64,000 nt of DNA from Plebeiibacterium marinum (lineage in GTDB: Bacteria > Bacteroidota > Bacteroidia > Bacteroidales > Marinilabiliaceae). Shown one piece after another: positions 7,143 through 49,474 of this stretch. Below the pieces are notes generated by a model. The model ran no database searches and had not been told where the DNA came from. It worked only from the letters and a program-made list of their open reading frames with translations. The stretch's first letter is position 1, and the number at the start of each line of letters is the position of its first letter. Both the position numbers and the translations under genes were made by a program. The DNA lies in contig NZ_JAPDPI010000007.1 of NCBI RefSeq assembly GCF_026013615.1, positions 62,001 through 126,000 on the forward strand, given 5' to 3'.

Positions 7143-7219
7143 CCGCTATAAGCCATGCGCTATAAGCCATAAGCTATCAGTTATCAGCCATAAGCTATCA
7201 GCTATTGGCTATAAGCTAT
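7143..7219. repeat. Heptanucleotide tandem array, 11 units
   Basis: Eleven consecutive 7-bp units can be read without slippage: CCGCTAT, AAGCCAT, GCGCTAT, AAGCCAT, AAGCTAT, CAGTTAT, CAGCCAT, AAGCTAT, CAGCTAT, TGGCTAT, AAGCTAT. The consensus is MAGCYAT. The array ends 4 bp from the stop codon of the MerR gene and fills the MerR-Nif3 gap. Confidence 0.9.
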
Positions 7220-7223
7220 AAGC

Positions 7224-7583
7224 CTATTCCTCCTCTTGATTTTCAGATTCCAAACTTTCCTTCATTTCTAAAAGCATTTCCCGAATGCTCTTTAGTTTAG
7301 AAACCACTTCAAAGTTATTTACGGTATCATCATGATTCTCTTCCAGTTTTTTTTGTGCCCCTTTCAAGGTCATCCCCTTTTCTTTCACCAGATGAAAAAT
7401 CAAATGGAAGTTTTCTACATCCGCAGGAGTAAAAAGCCTGTTGCCTTTCTTGTTTTTATGGGGTTTTATAATATCAAACTCCTTTTCCCAAAAGCGAATT
7501 AATGAAGTATTCACCTGAAACATTTCAGCTACCTCGCCAATGGTATAGTATAACTTCTCAATTTTTGGTTCCTTATAAGGCAT
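7224..7583 (-). CDS. MerR-family transcriptional regulator
   Basis: 119 residues. An N-terminal MerR winged-helix domain (about 8-80) is clear: LYYTIGEVAEMFQVNTSLIR, FWEKEFDIIKPHKNKKGNRL and TPADVENFHLIFHLVKEKGM, then TLKGAQKKL. A short acidic coiled-coil tail (SIREMLLEMKESLESENQEE) would dimerise it. There is no cysteine-rich or drug-binding effector domain, so the inducer cannot be guessed. Regulators of this short type are widespread single-copy genes in Bacteroidota. It is divergent from the CapA-like gene (125 bp apart), which it might control; that is inference from position only. Confidence 0.88.
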   Translation of the reverse strand: MPYKEPKIEKLYYTIGEVAEMFQVNTSLIRFWEKEFDIIKPHKNKKGNRLFTPADVENFHLIFHLVKEKGMTLKGAQKKLEENHDDTVNNFEVVSKLKSIREMLLEMKESLESENQEEE

Positions 7584-7696
7584 TGCGCTTCTCTTTTTGT
7601 GAAATTGGTTTTACAATATTAAGTCATTTGGGTTAAAAACCCGCAATATACAACAGAAAATATAGTGTTTCAGACCATTCTATTGCTCGCTCTACT

Positions 7697-7704
7697 TATA
7701 TTTG
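7697..7704 (+). promoter_or_regulatory. Candidate -7 element very close to the CapA start
   Basis: TATATTTG fits TAnnTTTG exactly, but it ends only 4 bp before the ATG at 7709. If used, transcription would begin at or near the start codon, giving a leaderless or nearly leaderless mRNA. No TTTG -33 box is obvious. Confidence 0.35.
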
Positions 7705-7708
7705 TAAA

Positions 7709-8848
7709 ATGAAGACAACACTTTATATTATTCTGTCAGTATGCTTTTGTTTTTATGCTGAAGCACAGGAAAAGGATTCATTAATATCATTTATTGGGGT
7801 TGGAGACATGATGTTGGGAACTGATTTCCCAAAGAAAGAATATCTGCCCCCTGACAACAACCCTTTACCTTACTTATCGGAAGCGATTCCTTATTTAAAG
7901 GATGCTGATATTACTTTTGGAAACCTGGAAGGAAGTTTCCTTGACGAAGGACCTGTATTCAAAAAATGCAGGGACACAACCAAATGTTACGCATTTAAGA
8001 TGCCCGAAATATACGCGCCCATTTTTAAAGAGGCTGGTTTTGATTTTTTGAATCTTGCCAATAACCACATCAGGGATTTTGGTCCTGCAGGATTAGAGAC
8101 AACCCGTTACCATCTTAATAAACTGAATATTGCATGGGCCGGCTTATTGGATAAGCCCACAGACACGGCATCCGTAAAAAATCTGACAATTGGGCTGGCA
8201 GGGTTTTCACCCAATACCGGGACTGTTGACATCAACGATTTGCCAAACGCCATAAAAATTGTACGCGACTTAAAAAAGAAATACGATATAGTTATCGTTT
8301 CCTTTCATGGTGGAGCCGAAGGAGCAAAACACCAACACATCACCCGTGAAAATGAAATCTTTTATGGAGAAAATCGTAGCAATGTATATGAATTTGCACA
8401 TGCCATGATTGATGCCGGAGCAGATATTATATTTGGTCATGGCCCCCATGTTTGCAGGGCCATTGAGGTTTACAAAAACCGTTTTATTGCCTATAGCCTT
8501 GGGAACTTTGCCACCTATTCGCGTTTCAACCTATCAGGTCCAAACGCTTTAACTCCAATTATAAAGGTGTACACCAATAAAAAAGGAGAATTTATTAAAG
8601 GCCAGATAATTCCTTTCAAACAAATTAAAAATGTTGCATTGACCTATGATAACAGTAACGCGGTTATACATAAGATAAAAGATCTCACCCGAATAGATTT
8701 TCCGGAACTAAACGACCGGCTGATGTTTGAAAACAATGGGTGGTTTAGTATGCCTTTTGAGAGAAAGATGAACTCAAAACCGATTGTCTCACCAGGCAAG
8801 TCATCTACTATCGACAGCAAAACTCTACATAAAATGGAGGAGCGATAA
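7709..8848 (+). CDS. CapA/PgsA-like metallophosphatase-fold protein
   Basis: 379 residues with a signal peptide (MKTTLYIILSVCFCFYAEA). Motifs of the CapA (PGA_cap) family follow in order: ISFIGVGDMMLGTDFP, DADITFGNLEGSF, FLNLANNHIRDFG, GLAGFSPNTG, VIVSFHGGAEG, and DIIFGHGPHVCRAIEVYKNR followed by IAYSLGNF. The conserved Asp, Asn and His residues in these motifs form the metal site of the calcineurin-like fold. Family members take part in poly-gamma-glutamate capsule export or act as uncharacterised periplasmic hydrolases. No capB/capC genes are adjacent, so polyglutamate synthesis is not implied here. It heads a plus-strand stretch with the DivIC-like gene about 80 bp downstream. Confidence 0.85.
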   Translation: MKTTLYIILSVCFCFYAEAQEKDSLISFIGVGDMMLGTDFPKKEYLPPDNNPLPYLSEAIPYLKDADITFGNLEGSFLDEGPVFKKCRDTTKCYAFKMPEIYAPIFKEAGFDFLNLANNHIRDFGPAGLETTRYHLNKLNIAWAGLLDKPTDTASVKNLTIGLAGFSPNTGTVDINDLPNAIKIVRDLKKKYDIVIVSFHGGAEGAKHQHITRENEIFYGENRSNVYEFAHAMIDAGADIIFGHGPHVCRAIEVYKNRFIAYSLGNFATYSRFNLSGPNALTPIIKVYTNKKGEFIKGQIIPFKQIKNVALTYDNSNAVIHKIKDLTRIDFPELNDRLMFENNGWFSMPFERKMNSKPIVSPGKSSTIDSKTLHKMEER

Positions 8849-8903
8849 TTGTAACTGCAATTGATGTTTTAAAACCCAGGTCAGAAAGCTGTCCTAATTT
8901 TTA

Positions 8904-8911
8904 TACATTTG
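8904..8911 (+). promoter_or_regulatory. Candidate -7 element for the DivIC-like gene
   Basis: TACATTTG matches TAnnTTTG and ends 16 bp before the ATG at 8928. It lies in the 79-bp gap after the CapA-like gene, so the DivIC-like pair may have its own promoter. No -33 box was found. Confidence 0.4.
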
Positions 8912-8927
8912 CAACAAAGTATTTGCC

Positions 8928-9233
8928 ATGAGATTTTCAAAAATAAAAATTCCATCTTATTTGAAAAACAAATACATACTTACATTGGTTGTATTTGGTG
9001 TTTGGATAGGATTTTTTGATCAGAACAACCTATGGGACAGGAGCAAACTCTCATCACGTATCAATCAGCTTGAAAAACAAAAGCAACATTACGAAGTTGA
9101 GATAGAAAACAACCTTCGCAACCGAAATGAAATTGAAGAAAGCGCTGAGAGTCTGGAAAAGTTTGCCCGGGAACAATATTTAATGAAGAAAAAAAACGAG
9201 GATATTTTTGTCATTGTTGAAGAGGAGGAATAA
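8928..9233 (+). CDS. Septum formation initiator protein (DivIC/FtsB-like)
   Basis: 101 residues. It has a short cytoplasmic N-terminus, one membrane span (YILTLVVFGVWIGFFDQNNL), then a coiled coil (RINQLEKQKQHYEVEIENNL and ESAESLEKFAREQYLMKKKN). This is the DivIC/FtsB fold: a bitopic divisome protein that pairs with FtsL and FtsQ at the division septum. The conserved 'E-x-ARE-x-y-x-MkkxxEdif' segment is well preserved. Its TAA stop shares its last A with the ATG of the next gene, implying translational coupling. The FtsB/DivIC family call is confident; the precise name cannot be separated by sequence. Confidence 0.88.
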   Translation: MRFSKIKIPSYLKNKYILTLVVFGVWIGFFDQNNLWDRSKLSSRINQLEKQKQHYEVEIENNLRNRNEIEESAESLEKFAREQYLMKKKNEDIFVIVEEEE

Positions 9234-9553
9234 TGAATTTATATAAAACACTAAGCTTTACCTATTATTTGGGAATGGCCGGAATTATTTTAGGCGTATT
9301 TTTAAAACTGAACGATTCTTCTTTAGCATTACCCTTTTTAATTGGAGGCTTTATCCCATTTATGGGCATCCGCCTTTTCAACTTACTAAATGCCAAAGAA
9401 GACAGACGAAGATTGCATGCCATACTTACAGTCAGTGCCCTATTTTTAGCGGCCGCCATTGTAGCCATATATTTTCAACGTTCTTACTGGATCATAGGTA
9501 TTTTACTCACTGCAACACTTGATTTTTATGTAAGTTTCAGAAAGTACTCGTGA
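9233..9553 (+). CDS. Small multi-pass membrane protein of unknown function
   Basis: 106 residues with about four hydrophobic segments: YYLGMAGIILGVFLKL, LALPFLIGGFIPFMGIRLF, ILTVSALFLAAAIVAIYF and YWIIGILLTATLDFYVSF. A short basic loop (NAKEDRRRLHA) separates the second and third. I do not recognise a named family. The 1-bp overlap with the DivIC-like gene (TAATG) says the two are made together, so a role near the division machinery or envelope is possible, but only by association. Confidence 0.7.
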   Translation: MNLYKTLSFTYYLGMAGIILGVFLKLNDSSLALPFLIGGFIPFMGIRLFNLLNAKEDRRRLHAILTVSALFLAAAIVAIYFQRSYWIIGILLTATLDFYVSFRKYS

Positions 9554-9566
9554 GAAACTAGTGAAT

Positions 9567-9594
9567 AGTTAAAAGTTGAAAGTTGAAAGTTGAA
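9567..9594. repeat. Heptanucleotide tandem array, 4 units
   Basis: AGTTAAA followed by three perfect AGTTGAA units, then AGTAGG. It lies in the convergent gap between the small membrane protein and the GT2 gene. Same 7-bp period as the arrays at 7.1, 37.4, 42.6-43.1 and 49.2-49.5 kb, but a different unit sequence. Confidence 0.85.
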
Positions 9595-9636
9595 AGTAGG
9601 GAAGCTGAGTGGGGATTATTACCGTTTCTGGAATAT

Positions 9637-10902
9637 TTAATGATGGAGCTTTTGCATTTCCCTGTATTTTAGCAATAATTCTTTCTCGTCAAAATAATCA
9701 GCGGTATCAACACCTAAGCGCTGCAGCAACTCAATAGCCGCATCAAAAGCTGTTGTTTTTTCAATAAAATGCTCATGAACATAGTTGAGATACTTTACAA
9801 CCTTAAACGCGTTAAAAATATGGTAAAAACGCTTTTTAAAAACATCGGCCGTAGTACAGTTGTTATATAAATGATTCAACTCTTCCCAAAAATCAGAGTT
9901 TAGTAAAAAACTCCTGACAGCACCTGGTAATTTCAATATCTCCTCATGATAAACCTCTTTATCAATTTTATAGTATTTATCTGCATTCAGGAATAACTCT
10001 TTCAAATCGAAAAAAGCAGTAGGGTTATAAGTCAGATACTCTCCCTGCCCATCAACAATTTGTTTTACAGATGGCCCAGTACCAAAGGGAACCCTATCCG
10101 AGATCCTTGAAGAAGGTTTTATTGTGGTTGAGTTCAATTCCCCATATCCACCAAGCTGTATTAGTTTTTGAATAAAATAAAATTCTTCACCACCCTGACG
10201 GCGGTTCATCCCCCCTGCCCTGACATACGCATTGGCTGTAAAAGCAAAACAAGAGCCAACAGTATGATAAGCATATGGGAAACCAATGGAACGAAGAGAC
10301 TCAACGTAATACCTCAAATGAAGTTCATATTGCGTTATGGCATCATAAATTTCTACAGCATACTCATCCCCATCAACAGGATGCTCGTAATAAATGGAAC
10401 ACGCATTATTTTTTTGACTAGCCCCAAACCACTGCCTTATTTCCTCAAAATAGTTTTTATCAACTAAAGTATCTGCGTCCAAAGATGCGATAATACCTTC
10501 CTGGTTTTCGGCATTGTAAAAATGCTGCACAGCCAGATCCATACCAATTTTCCGGGCCAGGCCAGCGCCAAAATGCTTTTGTGGAAGTTCTAATGCTTCA
10601 ACAACATAAAAACTTAATGATGATGTATTATTCTTACCAGCAAATTCATTGAGCTCCCTGATGGTTTGCAACTGAAGACTTAAAACCTTTTCTGATGAAC
10701 CTGCGGCCGCATTTATCACCAATATTACAGAAACATGGCAATCAATCTTATTACAGCTTCTTAACGAATCAAGAGTTGCCCTGATCGAGTCTTCTAAATA
10801 AACAGGAATAACCACAATCAAACCTGATTCTTTAATTTGCAGGACATCAAAGCTTGTAAAAGCCGGATGTCTCCTAAGATATTTACTGAACAAGTGATCC
10901 AT
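9637..10902 (-). CDS. Family 2 glycosyltransferase
   Basis: 421 residues, apparently cytosolic with no membrane span. The GT-A nucleotide-binding core is visible: GLIVVIPVYLEDSIRATLDS near residue 27, the metal-binding DxD at IIASLDADTLVDKNYFEEI, and the acceptor-side GGMNRRQGGEEFYFIQKLIQ with the ED pair typical of GT2. The last 120 residues are helical and unassigned. The sugar donor and acceptor cannot be predicted; envelope or exopolysaccharide glycan synthesis is the usual role. It is separated from the upstream OmpH-like gene by that gene's terminator, so it probably has its own promoter. Confidence 0.8.
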   Translation of the reverse strand: MDHLFSKYLRRHPAFTSFDVLQIKESGLIVVIPVYLEDSIRATLDSLRSCNKIDCHVSVILVINAAAGSSEKVLSLQLQTIRELNEFAGKNNTSSLSFYVVEALELPQKHFGAGLARKIGMDLAVQHFYNAENQEGIIASLDADTLVDKNYFEEIRQWFGASQKNNACSIYYEHPVDGDEYAVEIYDAITQYELHLRYYVESLRSIGFPYAYHTVGSCFAFTANAYVRAGGMNRRQGGEEFYFIQKLIQLGGYGELNSTTIKPSSRISDRVPFGTGPSVKQIVDGQGEYLTYNPTAFFDLKELFLNADKYYKIDKEVYHEEILKLPGAVRSFLLNSDFWEELNHLYNNCTTADVFKKRFYHIFNAFKVVKYLNYVHEHFIEKTTAFDAAIELLQRLGVDTADYFDEKELLLKYREMQKLHH

Positions 10903-10916
10903 TAGTTCTTCTTTGC

Positions 10917-10950
10917 AAAAAAGGCAGAACCCTTTTTAGGATTCTGCCTT
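10917..10950 (-). terminator. Rho-independent terminator of the OmpH-like gene
   Basis: On the minus strand AAGGCAGAA-tcctaaaaaggg-TTCTGCCTT is followed at once by TTTT. It is a 9-bp perfect stem, extendable by CC/GG pairing with a mismatch. It lies 24 bp past the OmpH-like stop. Confidence 0.85.
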
Positions 10951-10973
10951 GAATATTATAAAAAAATCTTTTG

Positions 10974-11603
10974 TTACTCTGCTGAAGCTTTTCCTTTGCT
11001 TACTTCATATCTTTTATTTAAAGCATCCGCAACACTTTGCGTAATATTAATACCCGGAGCGCTGTAAAGAACATTATCTCCCAAGGTATTACTTAAAATA
11101 AGCTTATAATTGCCTGCCTTATTCATTTCTTCAAGATAAGAAGTCAATGTATCTCTCAGCTGGCGGTTTAGCTTTTCCTGCTCAACCATTAATTCATTTG
11201 ATAACTTGGCATTCAAACCTTGTAGTTCCTGCTCTTTTGACATCAAGTTTCTTTGCTCTTTTTCAGCTCTTTCTCTTGATAAGAAACCATTATTTTGAAC
11301 CTTACGCTGAAATTCTGCCAGCTGGGTTTCTAATTTCTTAGCCTGTTCGTTAAAATCTGTTCTTGACTTTTCTTCTTTCTTTAATAGTTCTTCCTGTAAG
11401 TATATGGCGTACTGATACTGGCGTAATAATGAATCTGTATCTATATATGCAACAGGAAAAACATCTCCTTCGGCAATACTGCCTGAACCTTTCGGATTGC
11501 TTGCATTTGTGTCAGAATCAGCTTTTTCGTTACATCCTACTAATAATACCGAACTCAATCCTGCTAAAAAAACTAAATTAACTACCAGTAAAAATCGTTT
11601 CAT
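10974..11603 (-). CDS. OmpH/Skp-like periplasmic chaperone, predicted lipoprotein
   Basis: 209 residues from the ATG at 11603; nine more codons upstream are open but spoil the signal peptide. MKRFLLVVNLVFLAGLSSVL ends in the lipobox LVGC, so the protein should be lipid-anchored. The core (VAYIDTDSLLRQYQYAIYLQ, then a long coiled coil to about residue 165, then KLILSNTLGDNVLYSAPGIN and ITQSVADALNKRY) is the Skp/OmpH fold that holds unfolded outer-membrane proteins. Classic Skp is soluble; a lipobox is an uncommon variation. A chaperone for outer-membrane proteins next to the PorP/SprF gene (232 bp away, same strand) is suggestive, but the family is also general housekeeping. Confidence 0.85.
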   Translation of the reverse strand: MKRFLLVVNLVFLAGLSSVLLVGCNEKADSDTNASNPKGSGSIAEGDVFPVAYIDTDSLLRQYQYAIYLQEELLKKEEKSRTDFNEQAKKLETQLAEFQRKVQNNGFLSRERAEKEQRNLMSKEQELQGLNAKLSNELMVEQEKLNRQLRDTLTSYLEEMNKAGNYKLILSNTLGDNVLYSAPGINITQSVADALNKRYEVSKGKASAE

Positions 11604-11834
11604 ACATTTAAAATTTACATTCTTGAACATATATCTAAATCCAATTATAACTGAATGTGATTTATTTATACGCCATTAATACTTTGAGACTATATCTTTG
11701 ATTAACGCCTTATAAAACTAAACAAGCATTATAACAGCTTTTACTTAATCGGACAACAAATATAAATTAATAACAAATATTTAAAAATTTATTTTGGCTT
11801 TTTTGTCTAACCAAACCAAAATTGACGCCTTGTT

Positions 11835-12905
11835 TTAGAAAATACGCCTTGACCTGCCTCGATATTTACTTCTTGAAGGCCCTCCTCCAGAATATCCAGG
11901 CTGTGAACAAGGGATTGCATTCCTGTTAATTCTGGGTTTATTAGACGATGGTATTGTATACATCAGCGATACCTCATGCGCCCCCCCTGTATTTCCTGCC
12001 AGGTCGGATATGGTTAGATCATAGGAATAACCAACCCGGGTTCGGCCAAGATGAACACCAAATATTGCGATTATAGCATCTTTATTTGACAATTGTTCTT
12101 TATTTGAAGTGGGGATACCCCGGTACCAAAGCCCTAATTCAATTGGGTTATACTGCCAATATGCACCAACATCCAACTGGTTAAAGTCGTCTTGATTTCT
12201 GTAATTAAAAGCAAAGGTAACACTTTGATCAGGCTCCCTTCTCCTTCCTTCCTTATATACCCACTTAACGCCACCAAACATAGTCAGTTTTAAACCGCTT
12301 ATGGGTTCTATATCGGTAAAGCTATTGTTATTCTTAACCAAATGGTCTACGGTTATCCCTCCCCAATAAAAATTACTATAAATCATTACAGATGCTGCAG
12401 CATCAAATTTATTGGTTTGATCCTGCGCCAGAACAAAATCTCCACTAGTTGCATCCCCCCCGGTATTTGGATCTATTTCACGACCAAAAGTAACTTTTGA
12501 TAAGTCAAGGAAAGATTGGGCAAACTTAAATTGAATACCCGGACGAATCATAATTTTATCTGATACATAGACTTCATAAGCATACAACAGACCTACATTT
12601 TGATTTACCAAAGCACCCTTCTGTTGGTCATCACGAAAATATAAGAAGCCTAAACCGCTATTAAAATCAGAGAAGTAATGATCAAAAGAGAAAGAGAAAG
12701 AACTATATGTTTGCGGAATACTTGGCCATTGATCTCTGTAGTTTAATGCAAGCCTGCTCCCTTCTGTTAATCCGGTAAAAGACGGACTTAAATACAGCGG
12801 CGATGCATAATTTTGGGAAAACGATACATCCTGAGCATTTCCATTAATACAAAACACCAACAGAAACAAAACAAAATAATATGTTCTATTTATAAATTCT
12901 CTCAT
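11835..12905 (-). CDS. PorP/SprF-family type IX secretion outer-membrane protein
   Basis: 356 residues with a signal peptide (MREFINRTYYFVLFLLVFCI to GNA). Family hallmarks are QDVSFSQNYASPLYLSPSFT, GLTEGSRLALNYRDQWPSI, SFSFDHYFSDFNSGLGFLYF and, late, LGRTRVGYSYDLTISDLAG followed by GAHEVSLMY. These belong to PorP/SprF, a beta-barrel family (about 300-360 residues). In Flavobacterium johnsoniae, SprF is needed for surface delivery of the adhesin SprB encoded next to it. Here the gene lies 76 bp downstream of a giant SprB-like gene on the same strand, the same arrangement. The basic C-terminal tail (RSKYRGRSRRIF) extends past the barrel. An attachment or secretion partner role for the adhesin is inference from family and position. 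Confidence 0.92.
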   Translation of the reverse strand: MREFINRTYYFVLFLLVFCINGNAQDVSFSQNYASPLYLSPSFTGLTEGSRLALNYRDQWPSIPQTYSSFSFSFDHYFSDFNSGLGFLYFRDDQQKGALVNQNVGLLYAYEVYVSDKIMIRPGIQFKFAQSFLDLSKVTFGREIDPNTGGDATSGDFVLAQDQTNKFDAAASVMIYSNFYWGGITVDHLVKNNNSFTDIEPISGLKLTMFGGVKWVYKEGRRREPDQSVTFAFNYRNQDDFNQLDVGAYWQYNPIELGLWYRGIPTSNKEQLSNKDAIIAIFGVHLGRTRVGYSYDLTISDLAGNTGGAHEVSLMYTIPSSNKPRINRNAIPCSQPGYSGGGPSRSKYRGRSRRIF

Positions 12906-12981
12906 TTGGTTGTATATCCTTTAAAACGCCTCACAAAATAATAAAACTTTGTAAGACGTTTTAAATGTTTCATTAAATAAT

Positions 12982-15900
12982 TTATCTGATCAACAATACA
13001 CTTCCGGATTCCGAAAATACTTTTCCACTAATAAAAGTACCCGAAGCTTTCCAAACATAAGCACCCTGAGCACAAAGCTCTCCGTTATAGAATCCATTCC
13101 AGCCTTCTTCAACATCGGTACTTTCGTAAATAAGTTGTCCCCATCTGTTGAAAATTTGAAGCTTATAAGTGTCAACATCTCTTTTTACTGGTCTGAATAC
13201 AGAATATTGTTCACCTCCACCAATAATGGCCGAAGTTTCTCCATCCGGACGAGGAGCAAATGCTGTTGGGAACCTGATAAACCCTTCTAAAACAGAGGTT
13301 ATCACACCTGGCTTAACCAGTTCATCCACACATCCATGTGCACTTTCTACTGTCAGTGTTAAATCAAACACGCCTTCTTCCTGGTATTCATACAATGGGT
13401 TGGCATCTGTTGATGTACCTCCATCCCCAAATTGCCAGAAGAATTTCACAGCATCTTTTGATAAGGTGTTACAACTGAGTTTATCCCCTGGCACATATAC
13501 CACATCCGGAGTATAACTAAACTCAGCTACCGGATGGTCATGTACCAGGATATCCCTGGTATACTCGCCATTAACTCCATCTGGTCCGGGAGCAATAAGT
13601 TTAACCGTATAGGTACCCGGATCCTCAAAAGTATGTACCGGGTTTCTGTCTGATGAAGTATATCCGTCTCCAAATTCCCAAATGAAGTTTGCTCCTCCAT
13701 CAGAGTAATTTGTAAACTCAATGGTTAATGGATAACATCCTTGCGTTGTATCAACCACAAAGGCAGCATCCGGAACAACCCTATATTCAATACTAACATC
13801 ATCGTATGTAATACAGCCATTAACGTCCATCAGCCATCTGTATGTATTAATACCTTCATTCAGGTTACGGACGGTTGTATTGAAATAGGTATCATCATCA
13901 AAATCACCAGCTCCTGCAACAATGCTCCATGTTGCACCCAGATTACCTGGATTAGATGCTTTCAGTTCGAATGACGACTCATAGGTAACTTCATCTTCTC
14001 CTGCATATGGATCAGCCTTATTGCTTACTACCTCAACAACATCTTCCGTAGTACACGACCCGTAAGCCACAGTCCATTTAAACCTGTTCTCGCCTAATCC
14101 TAATTCCCTGACAATAGTTGTTGGATCATTGGCATTATCAAAGGTTCCATTACCCGATAACACCGTCCATGTTCCAACCCCGGAGTCTGGATCGTTGGCA
14201 TTTAATGTTAAGTAATCATCACAACTGGTTCTGTCGGTACCTGCTGCTGCCTGATCAGGGATCTGATTAAACACCGTAATCTGATCAGATGAAATACAGC
14301 CTCCTTTCTGAACATTCCACATCAGGATATTTTCACCAAAGGTTAATCCTTCAACACGCGTTTTGGCATCTTTATCATCAACAAAGGTGGCATTACCTGA
14401 AATCAGCGTCCAGAAACCTTCTCCTTGTGTTGGCAAATTGGCATCCAAAGTGGCGTAATCCTTGCAATCCTCAATATCAGGACCGGCATTTGCTGTGGTA
14501 GGCGTATTATTCAATACTTCAATATCACTTTGCTTGGTACATTGACCCTGAGTAATCGTCCATCTCAATACATTTACTCCTTCATTCAGATTAGATATTG
14601 TTGCATTCGGTTTAGTGGAATCATCAAAATTACCACCTCCTTCAATGATAGACCAGTTACCTGTACCAAAGTCAGGAACTGCTGCCTTTAAGACAACTGT
14701 TGGTGAACAATACTCTTCATTAGCACCTGCATAAGGATCAGAAGGCTCGTTATTTGTTACCCTAACCTCATCAACCGAAGTACACAGGTCATTATCACTG
14801 GTGACTGTCCATCGCATTACATTATCACCTTTCGACAAGCCTGTAATGGATGCTTTTGGATTATTAACCTGATCAGCAGGAATAGTTGCCGCACCAATAA
14901 GTACTTCCCATGCTCCGGTTCCTATATCTACCGGGGTAGCATCCAGGGTAGTATTATCAATACATATTTCCTGAGTATTTCCGGCATAGGCTGTACTTGG
15001 CGTATGGTTAATTACGGTAACTTCTGCCATAGTTATACATCCTTCATTATTGATAGTCCATCTCAACAGGTTGCTTCCTTTAGCCAAATCCAGCACTTCT
15101 GTTGTTGGATCATGCGTATCCTCAAAGCGTGCCTGACTGGAGCCTCCTATAACACTCCATGTCCCTACTCCGGGAGCTGCATTGTTTGCATCAAGGAAGG
15201 TATGGTCTGCACAAATTTCCTGTGTGCCACCAACAACAGCCTGAATAGTATTATAGCTGATTTCCACATCATCATATAAAGTACATCCATTGTTTTCCAC
15301 TGTCCATCGGAAAACATTGGCTCCAAATTTCAGGTTGGTCACCTCTGTGGTGTTATCCAGATCATCTGCAAAAACGCCACCTCCACTTCGTATAGTCCAT
15401 GAACCGTTTCCTACTTCCGGTTCTGCGGCACTCAATACAAAATGGTTTTCACAAGTTGCCTTGTTATCTCCGGCCAATGCCTTAGATGGTTCATTATTTG
15501 TAACCTTAACCTGGCTCACAGAACGACATCCCTTATAGTCAATAGTCCATGTAAGGATATTCTCTCCTTTATCCAGATTTTTCACTTCAGTATACGGACT
15601 TTCATTATCGACAAAATTAGCCGATCCGGAGCCTCCTACAATCCCCCAGGTACCTAAACCTGGTGATGGGTTGTTGGCTTCTAAAATAGCCGTATCAACA
15701 CACAATACCTGTTCATATCCGGCATGCGCCTCTATTAAGTTGTTTGCTATTTCAACATCTGAAACGGAGGTACAGCCATTGTTATCGATTGTCCATCTGA
15801 ATAAGTTCTTACCCTTGCCCAGATTTCTAACCAAGGTATTTGTCAACGATGAATCCTCAATTTCTCCCTGACCTGATATTAAAGTCCAGGTACCATCCCC

Positions 15901-37370: not shown

Positions 37371-37505
37371 CACAATGAACAATGAGCAATCAACAATGAA
37401 CAATGAACAATGAGCAATGCACAATGAGACAATCAACGATGACAATGACATCTAGCTATAGGCGCAGCGTCCTAAAAACCAAAGGCGAAGCCGTCCTAAG
37501 AGCTA
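37371..37505. repeat. Heptanucleotide array (8 units) plus GC-rich element
   Basis: Eight 7-bp units without slippage, 37371-37426: CACAATG, AACAATG, AGCAATC, then three AACAATG, AGCAATG, CACAATG. A degenerate tail follows. At about 37452-37505 comes GGCGCAGCGTCCTAAA and AGGCGAAGCCGTCCTAAG, related to the core of the long repeats at 42.6 and 49.3 kb. The element lies between folE and dprA. Confidence 0.85.
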
Positions 37506-37509
37506 ATCA

Positions 37510-38966: not shown

Positions 38967-38976
38967 TGGATCCCGC

Positions 38977-39013: not shown

Positions 39014-39113
39014 CAAATATTTTGATTATTTCTTTTAATTATAAATTCCTGCCAGCTGCAAACAACATAATCATTCTTAATCAGGGAACTTTACCCTTAA
39101 AAACATTTAATAC

Positions 39114-40457: not shown

Positions 40458-40522
40458 CTTTGTTCAAATAAAATACAGGTATAAAGAAAGCAAAATTTAA
40501 ACATTATAGATCGTTAGATTTG

Positions 40523-40578
40523 AGACAAAAGATAAAAGACTAAACAGCTACTAACTACAACTTACGCCTTACATCTAA
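40523..40578. repeat. Degenerate heptanucleotide array
   Basis: Eight 7-bp words can be read: AGACAAA, AGATAAA, AGACTAA, ACAGCTA, CTAACTA, CAACTTA, CGCCTTA, CATCTAA. The period is 7 but the units have diverged. It lies upstream of the histidine kinase promoter. Confidence 0.5.
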
Positions 40579-40642
40579 ATGAGGCATTAACAATCTAAAC
40601 AATAATTACTTAATAAAACACCCCCATTATCTAAAAAAACTC

Positions 40643-40650
40643 TATTTTTG
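40643..40650 (+). promoter_or_regulatory. Candidate -7 element for the histidine kinase gene
   Basis: TATTTTTG fits TAnnTTTG and ends 19 bp before the ATG at 40670. The upstream 20 bp are C- and A-rich without a TTTG box. Confidence 0.4.
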
Positions 40651-40669
40651 CGCAAAACAAAAAGTTGCA

Positions 40670-42316: not shown

Positions 42317-42357
42317 GAAACAAACTACAGATAAATAAACTATATAATTTTACAACT

Positions 42358-42552
42358 ATGGATGGCAAAAACAGGAAATTCATTTCCGCGGGTATAGAAG
42401 TTTCCATCGTACTGAAAGAAGACCAGCGATCAGGCAACCTAACCCAAGGAATTGTGAAGCGAATTTTAACCAAATCATCACATCACCCACATGGCATTAA
42501 GGTAATGCTGGAAACCGGAGAAGTAGGTCGTGTAAAGATCATCCATCATTAA
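42358..42552 (+). CDS. YwbE-family small protein
   Basis: 64 residues from the ATG at 42358. MDGKNRKFISAGIEVSIVLK, then EDQRSGNLTQGIVKRILTKS, then HHPHGIKVMLETGEVGRVKI. This matches the short YwbE family, conserved in many bacteria and of unknown function; the G-x-V-x-I-V and GxVGRV-x-I pattern suggests a small beta-barrel. A longer frame from 42310 overlaps the kinase stop and gives 16 extra residues without conservation, so the internal ATG is preferred. It is probably co-transcribed with the kinase. The long repeat array begins 13 bp downstream. Confidence 0.85.
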   Translation: MDGKNRKFISAGIEVSIVLKEDQRSGNLTQGIVKRILTKSSHHPHGIKVMLETGEVGRVKIIHH

Positions 42553-42564
42553 CGCTGTTTAATT

Positions 42565-43142
42565 AGCTTATAGCTTATAGCTGATAGCTAGTAGCTAGTA
42601 GCTGATAGGACGGCTACGCCTTTAGGACGCTTCGCTTTAGCTTAACTACTTGCCATTACAGCATCTATGATTCAGTAAGATAATTGTATAACACAAGAAG
42701 CAAATAATCTTAAATAGCTGATAGCTGACAGGACGGCTGCGCCTTTAGGACGCTTCGCTTTAGCTTAACTTCTTGCCATTACAGCATTTATGGTTCTGTA
42801 AGATAATTGTATAATATAAGAAGCAAATAATCTTAAATAGTTGATAGCTTATAGCTAGTAGCTGATAGGACGCTTCGCTTTTGCTTAACTACTTGCCATT
42901 ACAGCATCTATTGTACAGTAAGATAATTGTATAACACAAGAAGCAAATAATCTTAAAAGCTGATAGCTCATAGCTTATAGCTAGTAGCTTATAGGACGCT
43001 TCGCTTTAGCCTGATTGCTTGCCACCAATACAACTTTTGCTCAGATAGAATTATAACATCACAAGAAGGGAATTATCTTGATACTTGATACTTGATACTT
43101 GATACTTGTGTCTTGTATCTTAATACTTGTGCCTTGACACCT
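42565..43142. repeat. Array of four ~123-137-bp repeats with heptanucleotide linkers
   Basis: Units start near 42601, 42724, 42861 and 42987. Each has a GC-rich core (GGACGGCTRCGCCTTTAGGA, CGCTTCGCTTTAGCTTAACT), then CTTGCCATTACAGCAT, CAGTAAGATAATTGTATAA and CAAGAAGCAAATAATCTTAA. Heptamer runs lie at the joints: six AGCTKAT-type units at 42565-42606, two at 42716-42729, four at 42839-42866 and five at 42958-42992. Units 3 and 4 have lost part of the core. The right end is GATACTT x4 plus five diverged units (43080-43142). This fills the 620-bp gap between the YwbE-like and following genes; no gene is seen in it. Confidence 0.92.
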
Positions 43143-43172
43143 AAGAATTGCTACTGTTCCGTTTTATCCAGA

Positions 43173-43883
43173 TTAGGGTTTAGGCTGCTTCATTTTTAAC
43201 CTTTCATGATAAGTGGCAATCAGGAATTCCCATTCTGATAAGGTGATATAGCTTTGGGATGGTTTCTTTTTTTTGCTCAATTTTACCCTTTCAATCTCCG
43301 CCTGAACTGCTACATTACCAATCCCAACCATTTGACCAGGCTGCACCTGACCTTTATACACCACATCATTAGTTCGTGCCTGAATAAAGTTTTTTTGGTT
43401 CATTTCAGCATCCCACTCTTTTACCGGTTGGGTTATAGCCTGATAGGTTGACACATCGACATTGTGCTGTGCCACCGCTTCTTCTTTTGTACTAAGCAAT
43501 GGCATATTACGGGCATAGGCTCCGGGACTTATGGTTTGTGGAATGATTACAACCTCAGACAACACTATGGTATCCCGGCTTAAAAACACCCCCATCAAAA
43601 AATTATCATTGGCCAGGGAATCGTGAATCGCAACATACAAAGACTCAAAACCAACATAAGAAAAGTGAACCACATCCCCATTCTTACCCCAGAAAGAAAA
43701 CTGTCCCAATTCATTAGAAACATAACTCCGATCCGAATTAATGGTATATTTTGCATAAGGCAAAGCAAACAGGCTATCCCCTTCCATAACAACGCCCCTG
43801 AACAATAACGAATCGGACACCTGGGCAGACAAGCTTCCCAATAACAAACATAGTACCAGCGCTAAAACATAAATCCTTTTCAT
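43173..43883 (-). CDS. Secreted protein with carboxypeptidase-like regulatory (CarboxypepD_reg) domain
   Basis: 236 residues with signal peptide MKRIYVLALVLCLLLGSLSA. Residues about 27-110 (FRGVVMEGDSLFALPYAKYT, SNELGQFSFWGKNGDVVHFS, YVGFESLYV, DTIVLSEVVIIPQ) form the beta-sandwich CarboxypepD_reg-like domain that begins many Bacteroidota TonB-dependent receptors. Here no receptor barrel follows; the remaining 110 residues are helical and end in a basic-proline tail. A small periplasmic or surface protein of unknown function is the safest call. It is the last gene of a minus-strand series and is directly next to the repeat array. Confidence 0.78.
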   Translation of the reverse strand: MKRIYVLALVLCLLLGSLSAQVSDSLLFRGVVMEGDSLFALPYAKYTINSDRSYVSNELGQFSFWGKNGDVVHFSYVGFESLYVAIHDSLANDNFLMGVFLSRDTIVLSEVVIIPQTISPGAYARNMPLLSTKEEAVAQHNVDVSTYQAITQPVKEWDAEMNQKNFIQARTNDVVYKGQVQPGQMVGIGNVAVQAEIERVKLSKKKKPSQSYITLSEWEFLIATYHERLKMKQPKP

Positions 43884-44089
43884 AACTCCCGGTTTTAAAG
43901 ATTATGCCAAAAACAGCTTGCTTAATTGGCAAAAAAGTATCTACCTGAGTTTGATTACAACAAAAGAGCTCAGGTTATTATTTTAAAGGTACACAGTTTT
44001 ACCATGGAAGGCAAGACTAAAAAAAGGACTATCCTCAAAAGTTATTTAAAATTCCCTTAACTCCTGAAGATGTCCTTGATGTCAGATTG

Positions 44090-44662
44090 TTATTTCTGCA
44101 GTTTCAATATAATGTCTGCAAGACTTCTTTTAGGCACATGGTGCACCTCCTGCATATCTCTCCAGTATTTATGGTCCTTATCAAGCTCTTCAATTACCAC
44201 CTCTTCTTTTGGTACACCCAAGGCAATAACCTGAACTATTTTATATTGTGCCGGAATATCCAATTCTCTCTGTATCTGCAATCGCTCTACAGAACCAATG
44301 ATACATCCCCCATAACCTTTTTCAACTGCCCCCAGCAAGATACTTTGTGAAGCAATTCCATTATCGCTAAAGAAATTAGAAGTAATTGAGGTGTCATTAA
44401 CCATGATAATATAGGCAGAAGGTCTTTCCCCTTCTTCCGGCCCGCTCCATTGGGGTAAATATCCGGCCCACGACAAGTGTTTAAAAATAATGCTATTTAT
44501 TTCCGGCGTATTGGAAAGGATATACTTTAGTGGCTGAGCATTACGTGCCGAAGGCGACAACCTGGCCAAATCAACCAATTCTGAAAGTTCATCAAGGCTA
44601 ATTGTTTTATCCTGATAAAAGCGCCTATAACTACGATTTTTTAATATAAGATCTTTAAGCAT
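44090..44662 (-). CDS. Nitroreductase-family flavoprotein
   Basis: 190 residues. FMN-binding residues are recognisable: NRSYRRFYQDKTISLDELSE near the N-terminus, DLARLSPSARNAQPLKYILS, GIASQSILLGAVEKGYGGCI with IGSV, and the closing VIALGVPKEE. Members are FMN-dependent NAD(P)H oxidoreductases that act as dimers on nitro compounds, quinones or flavins. The physiological substrate is not predictable. The length is normal. It lies just downstream of the superoxide dismutase gene on the same strand, separated by 106 bp with a possible terminator, so a shared oxidative-stress role is only a suggestion. Confidence 0.88.
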   Translation of the reverse strand: MLKDLILKNRSYRRFYQDKTISLDELSELVDLARLSPSARNAQPLKYILSNTPEINSIIFKHLSWAGYLPQWSGPEEGERPSAYIIMVNDTSITSNFFSDNGIASQSILLGAVEKGYGGCIIGSVERLQIQRELDIPAQYKIVQVIALGVPKEEVVIEELDKDHKYWRDMQEVHHVPKRSLADIILKLQK

Positions 44663-44712
44663 AATGTTAAGGGAATATAATTAATGATAATGTAGATTTC
44701 TGCTCACAAAAC

Positions 44713-44758
44713 AAAGGGGCAGCCTCAGAATCAACTTAGCTCCCTGAAACGCCCCCTT
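44713..44758 (-). terminator. Possible terminator of the superoxide dismutase gene
   Basis: On the minus strand AAGGGGGC and GCCCCTT pair around an about 30-nt loop, followed by TGTTTTG. It lies just after the stop codon at 44769. The loop is long and the T-tract interrupted. Confidence 0.4.
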
Positions 44759-44768
44759 GAAATATAAA

Positions 44769-45344
44769 TTAATACCGCTCTGAAACGATGTTCCAATCAA
44801 TCAGTTTCCAAAAGTTTGCAATATAATCCGGACGCTTGTTTTGATAATCCAAATAATAGGCATGTTCCCACACATCACAAGTTAAAACAGGAGTCAGCCC
44901 TTCTGTCATTGGATTTGCCGCATTACCTGTCTGTACAATTTTCAACTCACCGGCTTCATCTTTTACAAGCCATGCCCACCCGGAACCAAACAGTGTAGCT
45001 GCCGCTTTTCCAAACGCATCTTTAAAAGCATCAAAACTCCCAAATGCTTTATCAATAGCTCCGGCCAAAGCTCCTGTTGGCTCACCTCCTCCATCAGGAG
45101 AGAATGATGTAAAATAAAAAGTATGGTTCCAAACCTGGGCTGCATTATTAAATATTCCGCCTTCAGCCTTTTTTATGATAGTCTCTAAATCTGCTTCGGC
45201 AAACTCAGTGCCTTCAATTAAGTTATTCAGGTTATTTACATAAGCCTGATGGTGCTTTCCGTAATGGAATTCAATTGTTTTTTGTGATATAACAGGCTCT
45301 AAAGCATCCGCTGCATAAGGTAACTTGGGTAATTCAAATTTCAT
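44769..45344 (-). CDS. sodB: Superoxide dismutase, Fe type
   Basis: 191 residues, cytosolic. It dismutates superoxide to oxygen and hydrogen peroxide. Metal ligands are His27 (EFHYGKHH), His74 (VWNHTFYF), Asp157 and His161 (CDVWEHAYYLDYQNKRPDY). Gln70 in NNAAQVWNH and the absence of the Mn-type Gln near residue 145 (TGNAANP) favour iron, although related Bacteroidota enzymes can be cambialistic. No signal peptide is present. It is monocistronic or at most joined to the nitroreductase gene. Presence of SOD shows that the organism meets oxygen at least occasionally. Confidence 0.96.
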   Translation of the reverse strand: MKFELPKLPYAADALEPVISQKTIEFHYGKHHQAYVNNLNNLIEGTEFAEADLETIIKKAEGGIFNNAAQVWNHTFYFTSFSPDGGGEPTGALAGAIDKAFGSFDAFKDAFGKAAATLFGSGWAWLVKDEAGELKIVQTGNAANPMTEGLTPVLTCDVWEHAYYLDYQNKRPDYIANFWKLIDWNIVSERY

Positions 45345-45420
45345 GATAGTTTGTTTTAAAAAATTAAATAATACAGACTAGTAAAGATATTCGACGAAAA
45401 AATGTTCAACACATCCTTAA

Positions 45421-45428
45421 CAAATTTA
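45421..45428 (-). promoter_or_regulatory. Candidate -7 element for sodB
   Basis: Minus-strand TAAATTTG matches TAnnTTTG and lies about 77 bp before the sodB start. No TTTG -33 box was found at 17-21 bp. Confidence 0.3.
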
Positions 45429-45505
45429 AAAAATACTGAATGAATTCCTAAGAAAATTGTAATGAATTAGATTAGCAAGCCTTAAAAACAATTATATAAC
45501 CACAC

Positions 45506-45538
45506 AAAAAAAGCCACTGCATTTCTGCAATGGCTTTT
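45506..45538 (-). terminator. Rho-independent terminator of groESL
   Basis: On the minus strand AAAAGCCATTGCA-gaaa-TGCAGTGGCTTTT followed by TTT: a 13-bp stem with one mismatch, 54 bp past the groEL stop. Confidence 0.9.
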
Positions 45539-45591
45539 ATATTATTGAAGTATATCAGCTTCTGTCACCCGACTTCTGCATCAAACTTTTC

Positions 45592-47247
<1,656 letters not shown>

Positions 47248-47262
47248 TTAATAGGTTCTTAA

Positions 47263-47541
47263 TTATTTAATAAACAATACGTCTGTTTGAGAAATCAATA
47301 AGTAGTCAGTTCCGTCAATATTTAATTCTGTTCCTGCATACTTTCCGTAAAGAACAACATCACCAACGGCAACTTCCATTTTCTCGTCTTGTTTTTCAGC
47401 ACCAACTAATACAACTTCTCCTTGTAGAGGTTTCTCTTTAGCTGAATCAGGAATAATGATCCCACTTGCAGTTTTTGTTTCTGCCGCCTGAGGCTTAACC
47501 AAAATTTTTCCGGCAAGAATCTTTCCTTGTACTTGTGACAT
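47263..47541 (-). CDS. groS: Co-chaperonin GroES (Hsp10)
   Basis: 92 residues. LAGKILVKPQAAETKTASGI, then IIPDSAKEKPLQGEVVLVG is the mobile loop region that contacts GroEL, and VGDVVLYGKYAGTELNIDGT with YLLISQTDVLFI closes the barrel. It caps the GroEL chamber as a heptamer. It is the first gene of groESL. Its 5' region has no TAnnTTTG element on the minus strand but holds a -24/-12-like sequence and inverted repeats. Confidence 0.98.
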   Translation of the reverse strand: MSQVQGKILAGKILVKPQAAETKTASGIIIPDSAKEKPLQGEVVLVGAEKQDEKMEVAVGDVVLYGKYAGTELNIDGTDYLLISQTDVLFIK

Positions 47542-47629
47542 ATTTATAAGTTTTAAAAGTTAAACTATTTTATAATTACGGCTTCTGCCAGTCATAAACT
47601 GTGCCATTTATAATTATGGCCGTTTTTAC

Positions 47630-47645
47630 ATGTCGGGACTGACAT
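47630..47645 (-). promoter_or_regulatory. Imperfect palindrome upstream of groES
   Basis: ATGTC-GGGACT-GACAT, 5-bp arms with a 6-bp centre, 89 bp before groES and directly downstream of the -24/-12-like element. It is placed where an operator would overlap the transcription start. AATGGCACA also occurs twice on the minus strand, 59 bp apart. It is not a CIRCE element. Confidence 0.3.
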
Positions 47646-47648
47646 TTT

Positions 47649-47664
47649 TGCACCATTTGTGCCA
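47649..47664 (-). promoter_or_regulatory. Candidate sigma-54 (-24/-12) promoter of groESL
   Basis: Minus-strand TGGCACAAATGGTGCA has the exact GG-N10-GC spacing and 10 of 12 fixed positions of TGGCACG-N4-TTGCW. It would start transcription about 100 bp before groES. The same bases also form an inverted repeat (GCAC-N5-GTGC), so an operator is the alternative. Confidence 0.35.
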
Positions 47665-47704
47665 TTGACTGTCAGGAAACAGATTTAAAGCAACAGTATA
47701 TCAA

Positions 47705-47739
47705 TAAAAAAAAGCCGGCATGCAATGCATACCGGCTTT
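47705..47739 (-). terminator. Rho-independent terminator of secG
   Basis: Minus-strand AAAGCCGGTATGCA-TTGCATGCCGGCTTT followed by TTTTTT: a near-perfect GC-rich stem, 22 bp past the secG stop, separating it from groESL. Confidence 0.92.
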
Positions 47740-47761
47740 CAATATTTTTATAAGGCAATCC

Positions 47762-48124
47762 TTATTCCTGAGTTTCTGTTGAAGTTTCCTCTGTAGCAGG
47801 AGCTTCTTCTCCAGTAGCTGAAGGGAAAGAAGGCATTGCATTCTGAGGCTGTTCAATTTGCTCTAATTTCTCATCAAGCGCAGCATTTTCACCTACTCCT
47901 GGTCTTTCAAGAACCATAACGGCAACTAATGACAATACTAACAAACCACCAGCTAAATACCAGGTAGCCTTACCTAAAAAATCGGTTGTCTTTCTCACGC
48001 CCATTATTTGGTTTTGCGAAGAAAAGTTAGAAGCCAAACCTCCTCCTTTTGAATCCTGAACCAAAACAATAAGTATTAACAAAATACTTACAATAATTAC
48101 CAGTATAGATACAACTGAATACAT
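47762..48124 (-). CDS. secG: Preprotein translocase subunit SecG
   Basis: 120 residues with two membrane spans (VSILVIIVSILLILIVLVQD and ATWYLAGGLLVLSLVAVMVL). The loop between them has the SecG signature DSKGGGLASNFSS, then MGVRKTTDFLGKATW. An acidic, Pro/Thr-rich tail of about 40 residues follows, as often in Bacteroidota. SecG aids SecYEG during protein translocation across the inner membrane. It is the last gene of the sigma-54 activator/lptE/hypothetical/secG run, 21 bp after the preceding gene, and has its own strong terminator. Confidence 0.95.
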   Translation of the reverse strand: MYSVVSILVIIVSILLILIVLVQDSKGGGLASNFSSQNQIMGVRKTTDFLGKATWYLAGGLLVLSLVAVMVLERPGVGENAALDEKLEQIEQPQNAMPSFPSATGEEAPATEETSTETQE

Positions 48125-48145
48125 ACTCTTTATTTTATAAGATTT

Positions 48146-49084
48146 TTAATTTTCTTTTAACTCGCTAATTCGCCGTGCAAAGTAAACACTTTTTTCAGGA
48201 TATTTCAAGCGCAATTTCTCGAAAATTGATATCGCCTTTGATTTATGCCCTTGCTTGATATAAATACCTGCCAATGTTTCTGATAATATATCCTCATCTT
48301 CATCATTTTTTTGCTCCGATAAATCCACATTTTTATGCTTCCTTGCCGTATCGGGTATTATTTTAGGTTCGGAGTTCAGGAAGTTATCTATTAAATCCAT
48401 GCCTGAATTCTTTTTCTCCCCTTCACTTATATCGGTTGGATTGGAATAACGCATAATGTGCAACCAATCAGAAAATGACCTGTTCTCATTGGAATCAACA
48501 TCATTTATCTCGTCAATACCTGGTAGTAAATACCCCGTTGAACTACTCGTTTCATAATCCAGCAAATCGGCTGCAGGCAATACTATGTCATCAAATTCTT
48601 CTTTAGGTTCTGTATCACTTTGCCCCGTGCTAAAAGTAAAGTTATACACTTCCCCTGATTCATCTGCCAGTTCATCCGAAGCCCCCAGATAATTATCCGT
48701 TATGGTTACTTCTTTAGGAGTGCTGGCAATCTTGTTTTCCTCTCTACTTACAGCAAACCCTTCATTTTTTGCCTCCTCTGCATGCTGTGTATTTCCCGCA
48801 ATCCCACCGGATAAATGCATCAACTCCGGCTGTGTTTTTGATTTTTCATCTCCAATATTATTGAGCAAAAAAAACAATTTGCTCCTGTCCGGGATATAAA
48901 CTGAAGAGTGCTTCAATTCACTATTGTATCGAATATGATCCACTTTATGCATATTCTTTAACAACAGCATTCTTCCGGCTTGAAAAAAGGGATATTCATC
49001 AACTATTTCTTTCAATGCCGCAAGCGTATCCTCATCAACCAAATCCGGACTTGTCAATATTTCACTAAAACCACGTTTGTTCAT
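48146..49084 (-). CDS. Conserved hypothetical protein with C-terminal TPR-like segment
   Basis: 312 residues from the ATG at 49084 (MNKRGFSEILTSPDLVDEDT). The frame stays open to 49207, but that part enters the inverted repeat element and lacks conservation-like character, so I use the internal start. The N-terminal 90 residues (LAALKEIVDEYPFFQAGRML and VDHIRYNSELKHSSVYIPDR) look globular; residues about 100-260 are low-complexity and acidic; the end (LAGIYIKQGHKSKAISIFEK, then LKYPEKSVYFARRI) is a TPR pair. There is no signal peptide, so it is cytosolic. It lies between lptE and secG in an order seen in other Bacteroidota. Function unknown. Confidence 0.75.
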   Translation of the reverse strand: MNKRGFSEILTSPDLVDEDTLAALKEIVDEYPFFQAGRMLLLKNMHKVDHIRYNSELKHSSVYIPDRSKLFFLLNNIGDEKSKTQPELMHLSGGIAGNTQHAEEAKNEGFAVSREENKIASTPKEVTITDNYLGASDELADESGEVYNFTFSTGQSDTEPKEEFDDIVLPAADLLDYETSSSTGYLLPGIDEINDVDSNENRSFSDWLHIMRYSNPTDISEGEKKNSGMDLIDNFLNSEPKIIPDTARKHKNVDLSEQKNDEDEDILSETLAGIYIKQGHKSKAISIFEKLRLKYPEKSVYFARRISELKEN

Positions 49085-49184
49085 ATGGTTGTTTTTTTCT
49101 TTCACAGGCCCAATGCCTTTCCATTTTTTTTGCATACGAGTCCCTAACCTGGAAAAAGCGGAACAGCAGCAATTCTTATGTGTC

Positions 49185-49474
49185 AAGACACAAGTATCAA
49201 GTATCAAGTATCAAGATAATTCCCTTCTTGTGATATTCTTATTCTATCTGAGCAAAAGTTGTATTAGTAGCAAGCAATCAGGCTAAAGCGAAGCGTCCTA
49301 AAGGCGCAGCCGCCCTATCAACTACTAGCTATTTAAGATTATTTGCTTCTTGTGTTATACAATTATCTTACTGAACTATAGATGCTATAATGGCAAGTAG
49401 TTAAGCTAAAGCGAAGCGTCCTAAAGGCGTAGCCGTCCTATCAGCTATCAGCTATTGGCTATTTGCTATTTAAG
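49185..49474. repeat. Two-unit inverted copy of the 42.6-43.1 kb repeat
   Basis: Reverse complement of the left array: AAGACAC and three AAGTATC heptamers (49185-49212), CAAGATAATTCCCTTCTTGT, AGCAAAAGTTGTATTAGTAG, the GC-rich core twice (AAAGCGAAGCGTCCTAAAGG near 49285 and 49409), and ATCAGCT-type heptamers (49440-49474). It fills the 418-bp gap between lptE and the next gene inside an otherwise tight operon. No gene is seen in it. Confidence 0.92.

Follow-up and report, generated by a model that had tools for sequence, protein, structure and literature searches.

Comparison of a 64,000-nucleotide stretch of the Plebeiibacterium marinum genome (contig NZ_JAPDPI010000007.1, positions 62,001 to 126,000; the window) with S23 genes from related genomes, plasmids and viral contigs revealed that tandem arrays with a 7-bp period, of the kind found at nine places in the window, are far commoner at the flanks of S23 genes than at those of control genes. 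The arrays are probably the arms of S23 elements, small insertions whose core gene encodes a four-helix-bundle protein of the S23/IVP family (PF05635). This family was first known from the intervening sequences (IVSs) of 23S rRNA.

Heptad arrays at the flanks of S23 genes

Matches to PF05635 numbered 10 in this genome and 3 to 10 in each of nine genomes of the genus, and none was found in 14 control genomes. In this genome, the TGATACT array that precedes mutB lies after an S23 gene. Inspection by eye of the first six S23 genes looked at showed arrays or weak remains of arrays on both sides, the remains being weak at L150 and the period being 8 at L170. The S23 genes outside these six were collected as a plasmid set of 15 loci, from 25 records with a match (13 from cyanobacteria, the others from Azospirillum and Gemmatirosa), a set of 35 viral-contig loci, which may be host DNA and several of which are the same contig twice, and 40 more loci of the genus. 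A profile built from six S23 proteins found an S23 open reading frame (ORF) in 97 of 98 loci, and the four S23 proteins that were scanned all matched PF05635. The 97 loci were reduced to 81 non-identical loci and then to 75 that were under 85% identical; the final set of 73 leaves out L038, L088 and L091.

The flank test called for at least 16 of 21 matches at a given lag in either 160-bp flank, with thresholds fixed after the first S23 loci had been examined. As controls served ORFs with uncurated starts and a minimum length of 200 aa in the genus and 150 aa on plasmids, and the viral loci had no separate control. The results showed that 68.0% of the 75 S23 loci were periodic at lag 7 in either flank, compared with 5.1% of 861 control genes, and that 26.7% of the S23 loci and 0.70% of the controls were periodic at lag 7 in both flanks. 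Lag 14 was found at 50.7% of S23 loci versus 4.5% of controls and lag 8 at 16.0% versus 0.8%, while lags 4-6 and 9-13 were found at 2.7% of S23 loci at most. In the set of 73, lag 7 was present at 49 loci (25/42 in the genus, 12/15 on plasmids and 12/16 on viral contigs), and 7 of 83 plasmid control genes had a lag-7 flank. When the best flank lag with at least 15 of 21 matches was taken for each of the 73 loci, it was 7 in 53, 8 in 10 and 9 in one, and no such lag was found in nine.

Seven plasmid S23 loci from outside the set (L382, L386 and L388-L392) were scored later at the preset threshold, and all seven passed at lag 7, although three of the genes are short or partial, the unit of L389 is that of L299, and one locus turned up by chance within a control stretch. 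Four further loci of the genus gave one array of period 7 and three of period 8. Period-8 arms were seen at L368, L374, L375, L376 and L170 (for example GATGTGCT GATTTGCT), and the first four of these are mutual nearest S23 relatives. A subfamily of S23 proteins that sets period 8 was considered and rejected: the nearest neighbour was also a lag-8 locus in 4 of 13 lag-8 loci, and 1113 of 5000 shuffles gave a value as high. The S23 protein of L012 gave no match to cultured phages at E 1e-5.

Pairing of the arms and drift of the unit

The left flank was compared with the reverse complement of the right flank over 16 bp. A best match of at least 15 was found at 32 of 75 S23 loci, compared with 4 of 442 mismatched pairs and 1 of 300 control genes; complementary ends hold for the S23 loci as a group and not for each locus. 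The median energy calculated for the RNA duplex of left and right flanks was -57.9 kcal/mol (n=73), compared with -41.4 kcal/mol for mismatched pairs (n=575). Two whole elements, chosen as good examples, gave fold z values of -3.0 and -7.4, and the arms were paired in the latter (L294).

The unit itself was nearly unique to each locus, with 49 different consensus units among 54 period-7 loci. Sharing of 7-mers between arms followed the identity of the S23 proteins, from 0.83 at 90% identity or more (5 pairs) through 0.53 at 80-90% (5 pairs), 0.32 at 70-80% (17 pairs) and 0.13 at 60-70% (18 pairs) to 0.02 or less below that. The unit therefore tends to travel with the S23 gene while drifting quickly. 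The S23 homologs L298, L299 and L301 have one unit in different plasmid contexts. Drift was also seen at a single site, between mutA and mutB, which holds an S23 gene in several genomes of the genus. The right arm is TTGATAC and the left arm GTATCAA in G000, G001 and G002, the corresponding arms are TTTATAC and GTATAAA in G007 and G004, and G008 has other units; at this site the period and the pairing are kept while the sequence of the arms changes. The gap between mutA and mutB in G003 (L371) has no S23 gene and contains a 66-nt imperfect hairpin of -19 kcal/mol, which is possibly the remnant left after loss of the gene. A single motif search at the corresponding site of G006 (L372) gave no match.

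In the Azospirillum locus L302, which was the S23 locus covered by the Rfam rRNA scan, the S23 copy is located inside the 23S (large subunit, LSU) rRNA gene and heptad arms are present. Annotated protein genes stand on both sides of 12 of the 15 plasmid loci, and L300, L302 and L304 were judged otherwise or are without annotation. Since most copies lie between protein genes and not in rRNA, the label "S23 element" was used rather than "rRNA IVS". Neighbours on plasmids include cas6 and cas4, cas10 and cmr3, and two ribonucleotide reductase genes with the S23 gene on the opposite strand. Genes of the 23S_rRNA_IVP type within cas loci are already described in the available text of PMC3936711.

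Arrays of the window, their probable origin and their copy number

Tandem Repeats Finder and a lag scan both recovered period 7 at the nine arrays that had been named in the window by an earlier reading made from the sequence alone. The best scores at lag 7, out of 21, were 17 at 7143, 20 at 9567 and 37371, 18 at 42565, 16 at 42839, 17 at 42958, 21 at 43080 and 18 at 49185 and 49440, with lags 5, 6, 8 and 9 giving 4 to 12 at the same places. The example that had been called weak (40523..40578, no strand assigned) was marginal in the lag scan, with 14/21 at lag 7 versus 9 to 11 at lags 5, 6, 8 and 9. In 28-base segments with at least 20 matches, the window contained nine arrays at lag 7, seven at lag 14 and one at lag 11, and none at any remaining lag between 2 and 13. 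Among 100 dinucleotide shuffles of the window, 94 had no lag-7 array and six had one. The arrays are imperfect. Contrary to that reading, they are not unrelated to one another: a few unit families recur and are associated with S23 flanks. TAGCNNA is found at 7143, 42565-42994 and 49440, and TGATACT at 43080 and 49185. CAATGAN is found at 37371 and at other places in the genome. Gradual transitions from one unit to another without loss of the 7-bp register were seen by eye in some arrays (L022 16955-17087 and L264). The claim that all arrays lie between genes stands only if two ORFs with GTG or TTG starts, 5952-7133 and 48146-49207, are over-extended. Relatives of the former align from residue 16-28 onward, which suggests an over-extended start; the start of the latter is presumed to be over-extended as well.

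In the left part of the window, a TAGCNNA-family array (7136..7224, minus strand; GCTATAA/GCCATAA on the plus strand) is located between a MerR-type gene and a DUF34/NIF3 gene, and five copies of AGTTGAA stand at 9562..9597 (plus strand), recovered by both programs. About 11 copies of CAATGAN (37372..37448, plus strand) between dprA and a GTP cyclohydrolase I gene are directly followed by two GNA mini-hairpin units, GGACGCTGCGC and GGACGGCTTCGC (37462..37496, minus strand). Further on, a TAGCNNA array (42564..42608, plus strand) precedes the first double hairpin of a tandem composite (42592..43024, plus strand; unit of about 123 bp, 3.3 copies), each copy of which consists of TAGCNNA heptads and GNA hairpin units, and which includes the arrays 42836..42868 and 42958..42994 (both plus strand). 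The TGATACT array that comes next (43077..43137, plus strand) recurs as an inverted copy at 49176..49220 (minus strand), and it is followed there by GNA hairpin units with a short TAGCNNA stretch (49288..49440, minus strand), an inverted copy of the composite, and by a TAGCNNA array (49433..49478, minus strand). Between 43063 and 49480, these inverted copies enclose some 6 kb with genes of ordinary kinds, among them those for a nitroreductase, a superoxide dismutase and a chaperonin.

A survey of periods, which the sequence-only reading had proposed as its check, showed a strong 7-bp excess in the sampled part of the genome. The sample of 1.056 Mb, unmasked, was composed of the 64 kb window, 388.5 kb of contigs chosen by hits and 603 kb of contigs not so chosen, the last taken by number and not at random. 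It contained 39 arrays at lag 7, 29 at lag 14, 21 at lag 21 and 12 at lag 28 (28-base segments with at least 21 matches), whereas no further lag between 2 and 30 gave more than 7. By source, the 39 lag-7 arrays came from the window (8), the hit-chosen contigs (22) and the 603 kb (9). Within the same genus, G001 had 5 lag-7 arrays in 400 kb and G003 had 2 in 399 kb, almost no excess. Among named relatives, Plebeiobacterium, Labilibacter and Saccharicrinis are nearest by protein similarity to this member of the Marinilabiliaceae. The orthologous places of three window arrays were mostly without an array across the genus, and G002 has a TGGCTGA-like array (L104) 3' of the gene orthologous to a neighbour of a window array. 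Intergenic heptanucleotide repeats are known from cyanobacteria as short tandemly repeated repetitive (STRR) sequences. With intergenic 7-bp tandem units exceeding other periods, the arrays belong to the heptanucleotide repeats of this type or of the long simple sequence repeat (LSSR) type.

To relate arrays to arms, 44 arrays of this genome without a known adjacent S23 gene (solo arrays) were scored by their best share of exact 7-mers with S23 arms, the arms of the genome's own being those of 7 loci with period-7 arms. The mean share was 0.254 with the own S23 arms, 0.057 with plasmid arms and 0.035 with viral arms. Among the window arrays, the highest shares were 0.72 at 49185 and 0.67 at 43080, both with S23 locus L038, and 0.61 at 37371 (L335); the others were 0.33 at 49440, 0.24 at 7143 (L331), 0.18-0.19 at 42565-42994 and 0.04 at 9567. 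We conclude that most arrays of the window are probably S23 arms that lack the gene, the array at 9567 not included.

The TAGCNNA heptads at 42565-42994 precede GNA hairpin units that belong to a satellite. The double GNA hairpin GGACGGCTNCGCCTTTAGGACGCTNCGC is present in 83 copies in this genome (at most 2 mismatches) and was found in none of eight other genomes of the genus. Copies are often arranged in tandem at intervals of about 150 bp, frequently where a contig ends (L261-L280), and single hairpins AGGACGCTNCGC also occur beside S23 genes in G001 (L195) and G004 (L353). After several satellite blocks, a second dispersed sequence, AGTCCTACCTCCATAATATATTTTAGCTTATG... CCCCCATCCCCATG, was seen by eye (L263 and L267). 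A search of 126 kb (six satellite-bearing loci and the window) against Rfam at the gathering threshold gave no match.

The satellite showed that copy number moves by complete heptads. Among the 45 copies that have both anchors, the length of the heptad segment was 17 (2 copies), 24 (24), 31 (3) or 38 (2), or in a second series 25 (1), 32 (3), 39 (5) or 46 (1), so that 41 of 45 copies fell in series with 7-bp steps; the four off-step copies measured 22-23. The stretch that runs from the first hairpin to the second differed in length mostly by single bases (52-56 and 59-61; 35 and 66 in one copy each), and the loop of the second hairpin was 17 in 46 of 46 copies. The two window copies of the TGATACT block measure 68 bp (43077..43137) and 40 bp (49176..49220) between the same fixed anchors, a difference of 28 bp. 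At one plasmid locus, the left arms of Trichormus (L298 and L379) and Scytonema (L380) differ by 14 bp, and the other two plasmid sets compared (L297/L378 and L299/L381) showed no length difference; copy number thus varied among relatives at one of three plasmid loci compared, all of them outside this species.

Apart from the arrays, the minus strand of the window contains an ORF of 7549 aa (12982-35631) beside a gene of the PorP/SprF type (11835-12905), and its product is perhaps a giant secreted surface protein.

Mechanism, alternative explanations and known systems

In RNA, the two arms of an S23 element would pair into a stem that encloses the S23 gene. RNase III could cut this stem, by analogy with the intervening sequences of 23S rRNA, and such cutting together with an intergenic place would make the insertion tolerable. 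Slippage by one unit, with one arm correcting the other, would hold the period and the pairing while the sequence drifts. The association with S23 genes suggests a reason for a constant period and a free sequence, namely that arms mainly need to pair with each other. The arrays of the window may have arisen by later loss of the gene or by copying of arms without it. The period of 7 (or 8) may be set by a property of the polymerase, as proposed earlier, or by the S23 protein. It is possible, though on balance doubtful, that S23 elements make or maintain their own arms, with the length fixed (7, sometimes 8 nt) and not the sequence, and that the S23 protein belongs to the ruler; in that case, most heptanucleotide repeats between bacterial genes would be arms of one widespread element, with or without the S23 gene. 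The sequence-only reading had suggested an amplification mechanism that counts length rather than sequence. The 7-bp excess, the steps of whole heptads and the drift of the unit at constant period agree with that idea, but the ruler is not strictly 7, since the best period was 8 in 10 of 73 S23 loci.

Several observations weigh against the identification of the arrays as S23 arms. A six-frame search of the window found no S23 gene or clear remnant (best E 0.14), so the window arrays are at most arms without a gene, and the contig of the window has none of the listed PF05635 matches. The window arrays mostly run in one direction and do not form an inverted pair around a short gap. The share of 0.254 is high but within the range of other S23 arms of the genus (0.152 +/- 0.045, maximum 0.287 in 200 draws), and 13 of the 44 solo arrays, the one at 9567 included, share less than 0.10 with the own S23 arms. 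Among the S23 loci themselves, the nine without a lag of at least 15/21 and the ten with best lag 8 depart from the rule, direct rather than inverted matches of at least 15 occurred in 12 of 75, and only 22 of 73 duplexes fell under the 5th percentile of mismatched pairs. The pairs behind the relation between S23 identity and unit include single-site orthologs and near-identical viral loci. Three loci, L038 of this genome and its orthologs L088 and L091, had been discovered via their arrays.

Three other explanations were weighed against the same evidence. Slippage of the polymerase alone, by which preferential slips of 7 nt would create intergenic arrays from any sequence and S23 genes would be irrelevant, is in keeping with the period-7 excess, the whole-heptad steps and the lag-7 flanks of 5.1% of genus control genes and 7 of 83 plasmid genes, requires no sequence recognition for the unit to drift, and is a proposal found in the available text of PMC4679880 and PMC4692102. 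It appeared unlikely, as it leaves unexplained the 49 of 73 S23 loci with lag 7, the inverted flanks and the units common to similar S23 genes, and G003 has almost no excess in 399 kb. The flanks could also be a target rather than arms, if arrays existed beforehand and S23 elements inserted into them. The 44 sampled arrays without an adjacent S23 gene would fit such a history, as would the direct arms on both sides of some loci (12/75 at 15 or more; L292 by eye). Insertion into one array, however, predicts direct flanks, whereas inverted flanks were commoner (32/75 versus 12/75), and the same unit was found in different plasmid contexts (L298, L299 and L301). Moreover, the IVS within a 23S rRNA gene carries arms, and to our knowledge the 23S rRNA gene has no heptad array of its own; insertion into existing arrays was thus judged quite unlikely.

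A role of the arrays as repeated regulator sites, on DNA or RNA, in 5' leaders was considered by comparison with the TAACTGA repeats of Beggiatoaceae, for which a translational role is proposed in PMC4679880 as far as its available text goes. In this genome and in relatives, several genes have a TGATACT array directly before the start codon. Such a role was nonetheless very improbable as the general explanation, because the unit differs at nearly all S23 loci (49/54) and changes between orthologous sites, and because the array at 43080 sits between the ends of two convergent genes.

S23 elements resemble the 23S rRNA IVSs with an S23p/IVP frame in that an S23 gene stands between complementary ends, and the IVS of L302 has heptad arms. 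They differ in that most copies described here lie between protein genes, the arms are degenerate heptads with a unit nearly unique to each locus, and many arrays have no adjacent S23 gene. The Coxiella IVS has three tandem heptamers immediately before its ORF, with 2 or 3 heptamers depending on the strain, and is a single-case precedent for heptads at an S23 gene; the same source, in the text available, reports RNase III excision of RNA for other IVSs and gives the function of the S23 protein as not known (PMC4990558). No paper that describes S23 genes as generally having heptad arrays turned up in the literature covered, which was mostly without subscription papers and preprints. Intergenic heptanucleotide repeats have been published with the units TAACTGA (PMC4679880) and GGGAATC and GGGGA(T/C)T (PMC4692102). 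The arrays share with known repeats of this kind the 7-bp period, the imperfect units, the intergenic location, often before start codons, and the variation among relatives; unlike them, they are tied to S23 genes, no host element being named in the available text of either paper. A length-based bias of slippage had been proposed before; both papers ascribe it to Mrazek et al. 2007.

Reports of heptanucleotide repeats come from cyanobacteria, Beggiatoaceae, Xanthomonas and Bacteroidetes, with no consensus on what causes them; the association joins them to S23 genes. If it is true, much of the intergenic repeat DNA of bacteria would be the remains of one small, barely studied element, and the association can be checked in any genome from the flanks of its S23 genes. 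Two other systems bear a likeness. The short GC-rich intergenic hairpins repeated beside the arrays are similar to repetitive extragenic palindromes (REP) and their Y1 transposases (RAYT), and Y1_Tnp gave 7 matches in the genome, any link being hypothetical. Avd of the diversity-generating retroelements belongs to a related four-helix-bundle family (PMC10053308, available text), and one S23 protein matched bAvd with an E of 7e-6, below the curated cut-off. Two ideas formed by eye, a rule of four constant and three variable bases and stop codons in all frames as the cause of the unit, were dropped. In the right flank of L361, an S23 arm was seen to consist of TAACTGA, the heptamer of Beggiatoaceae, directly before an ATG.

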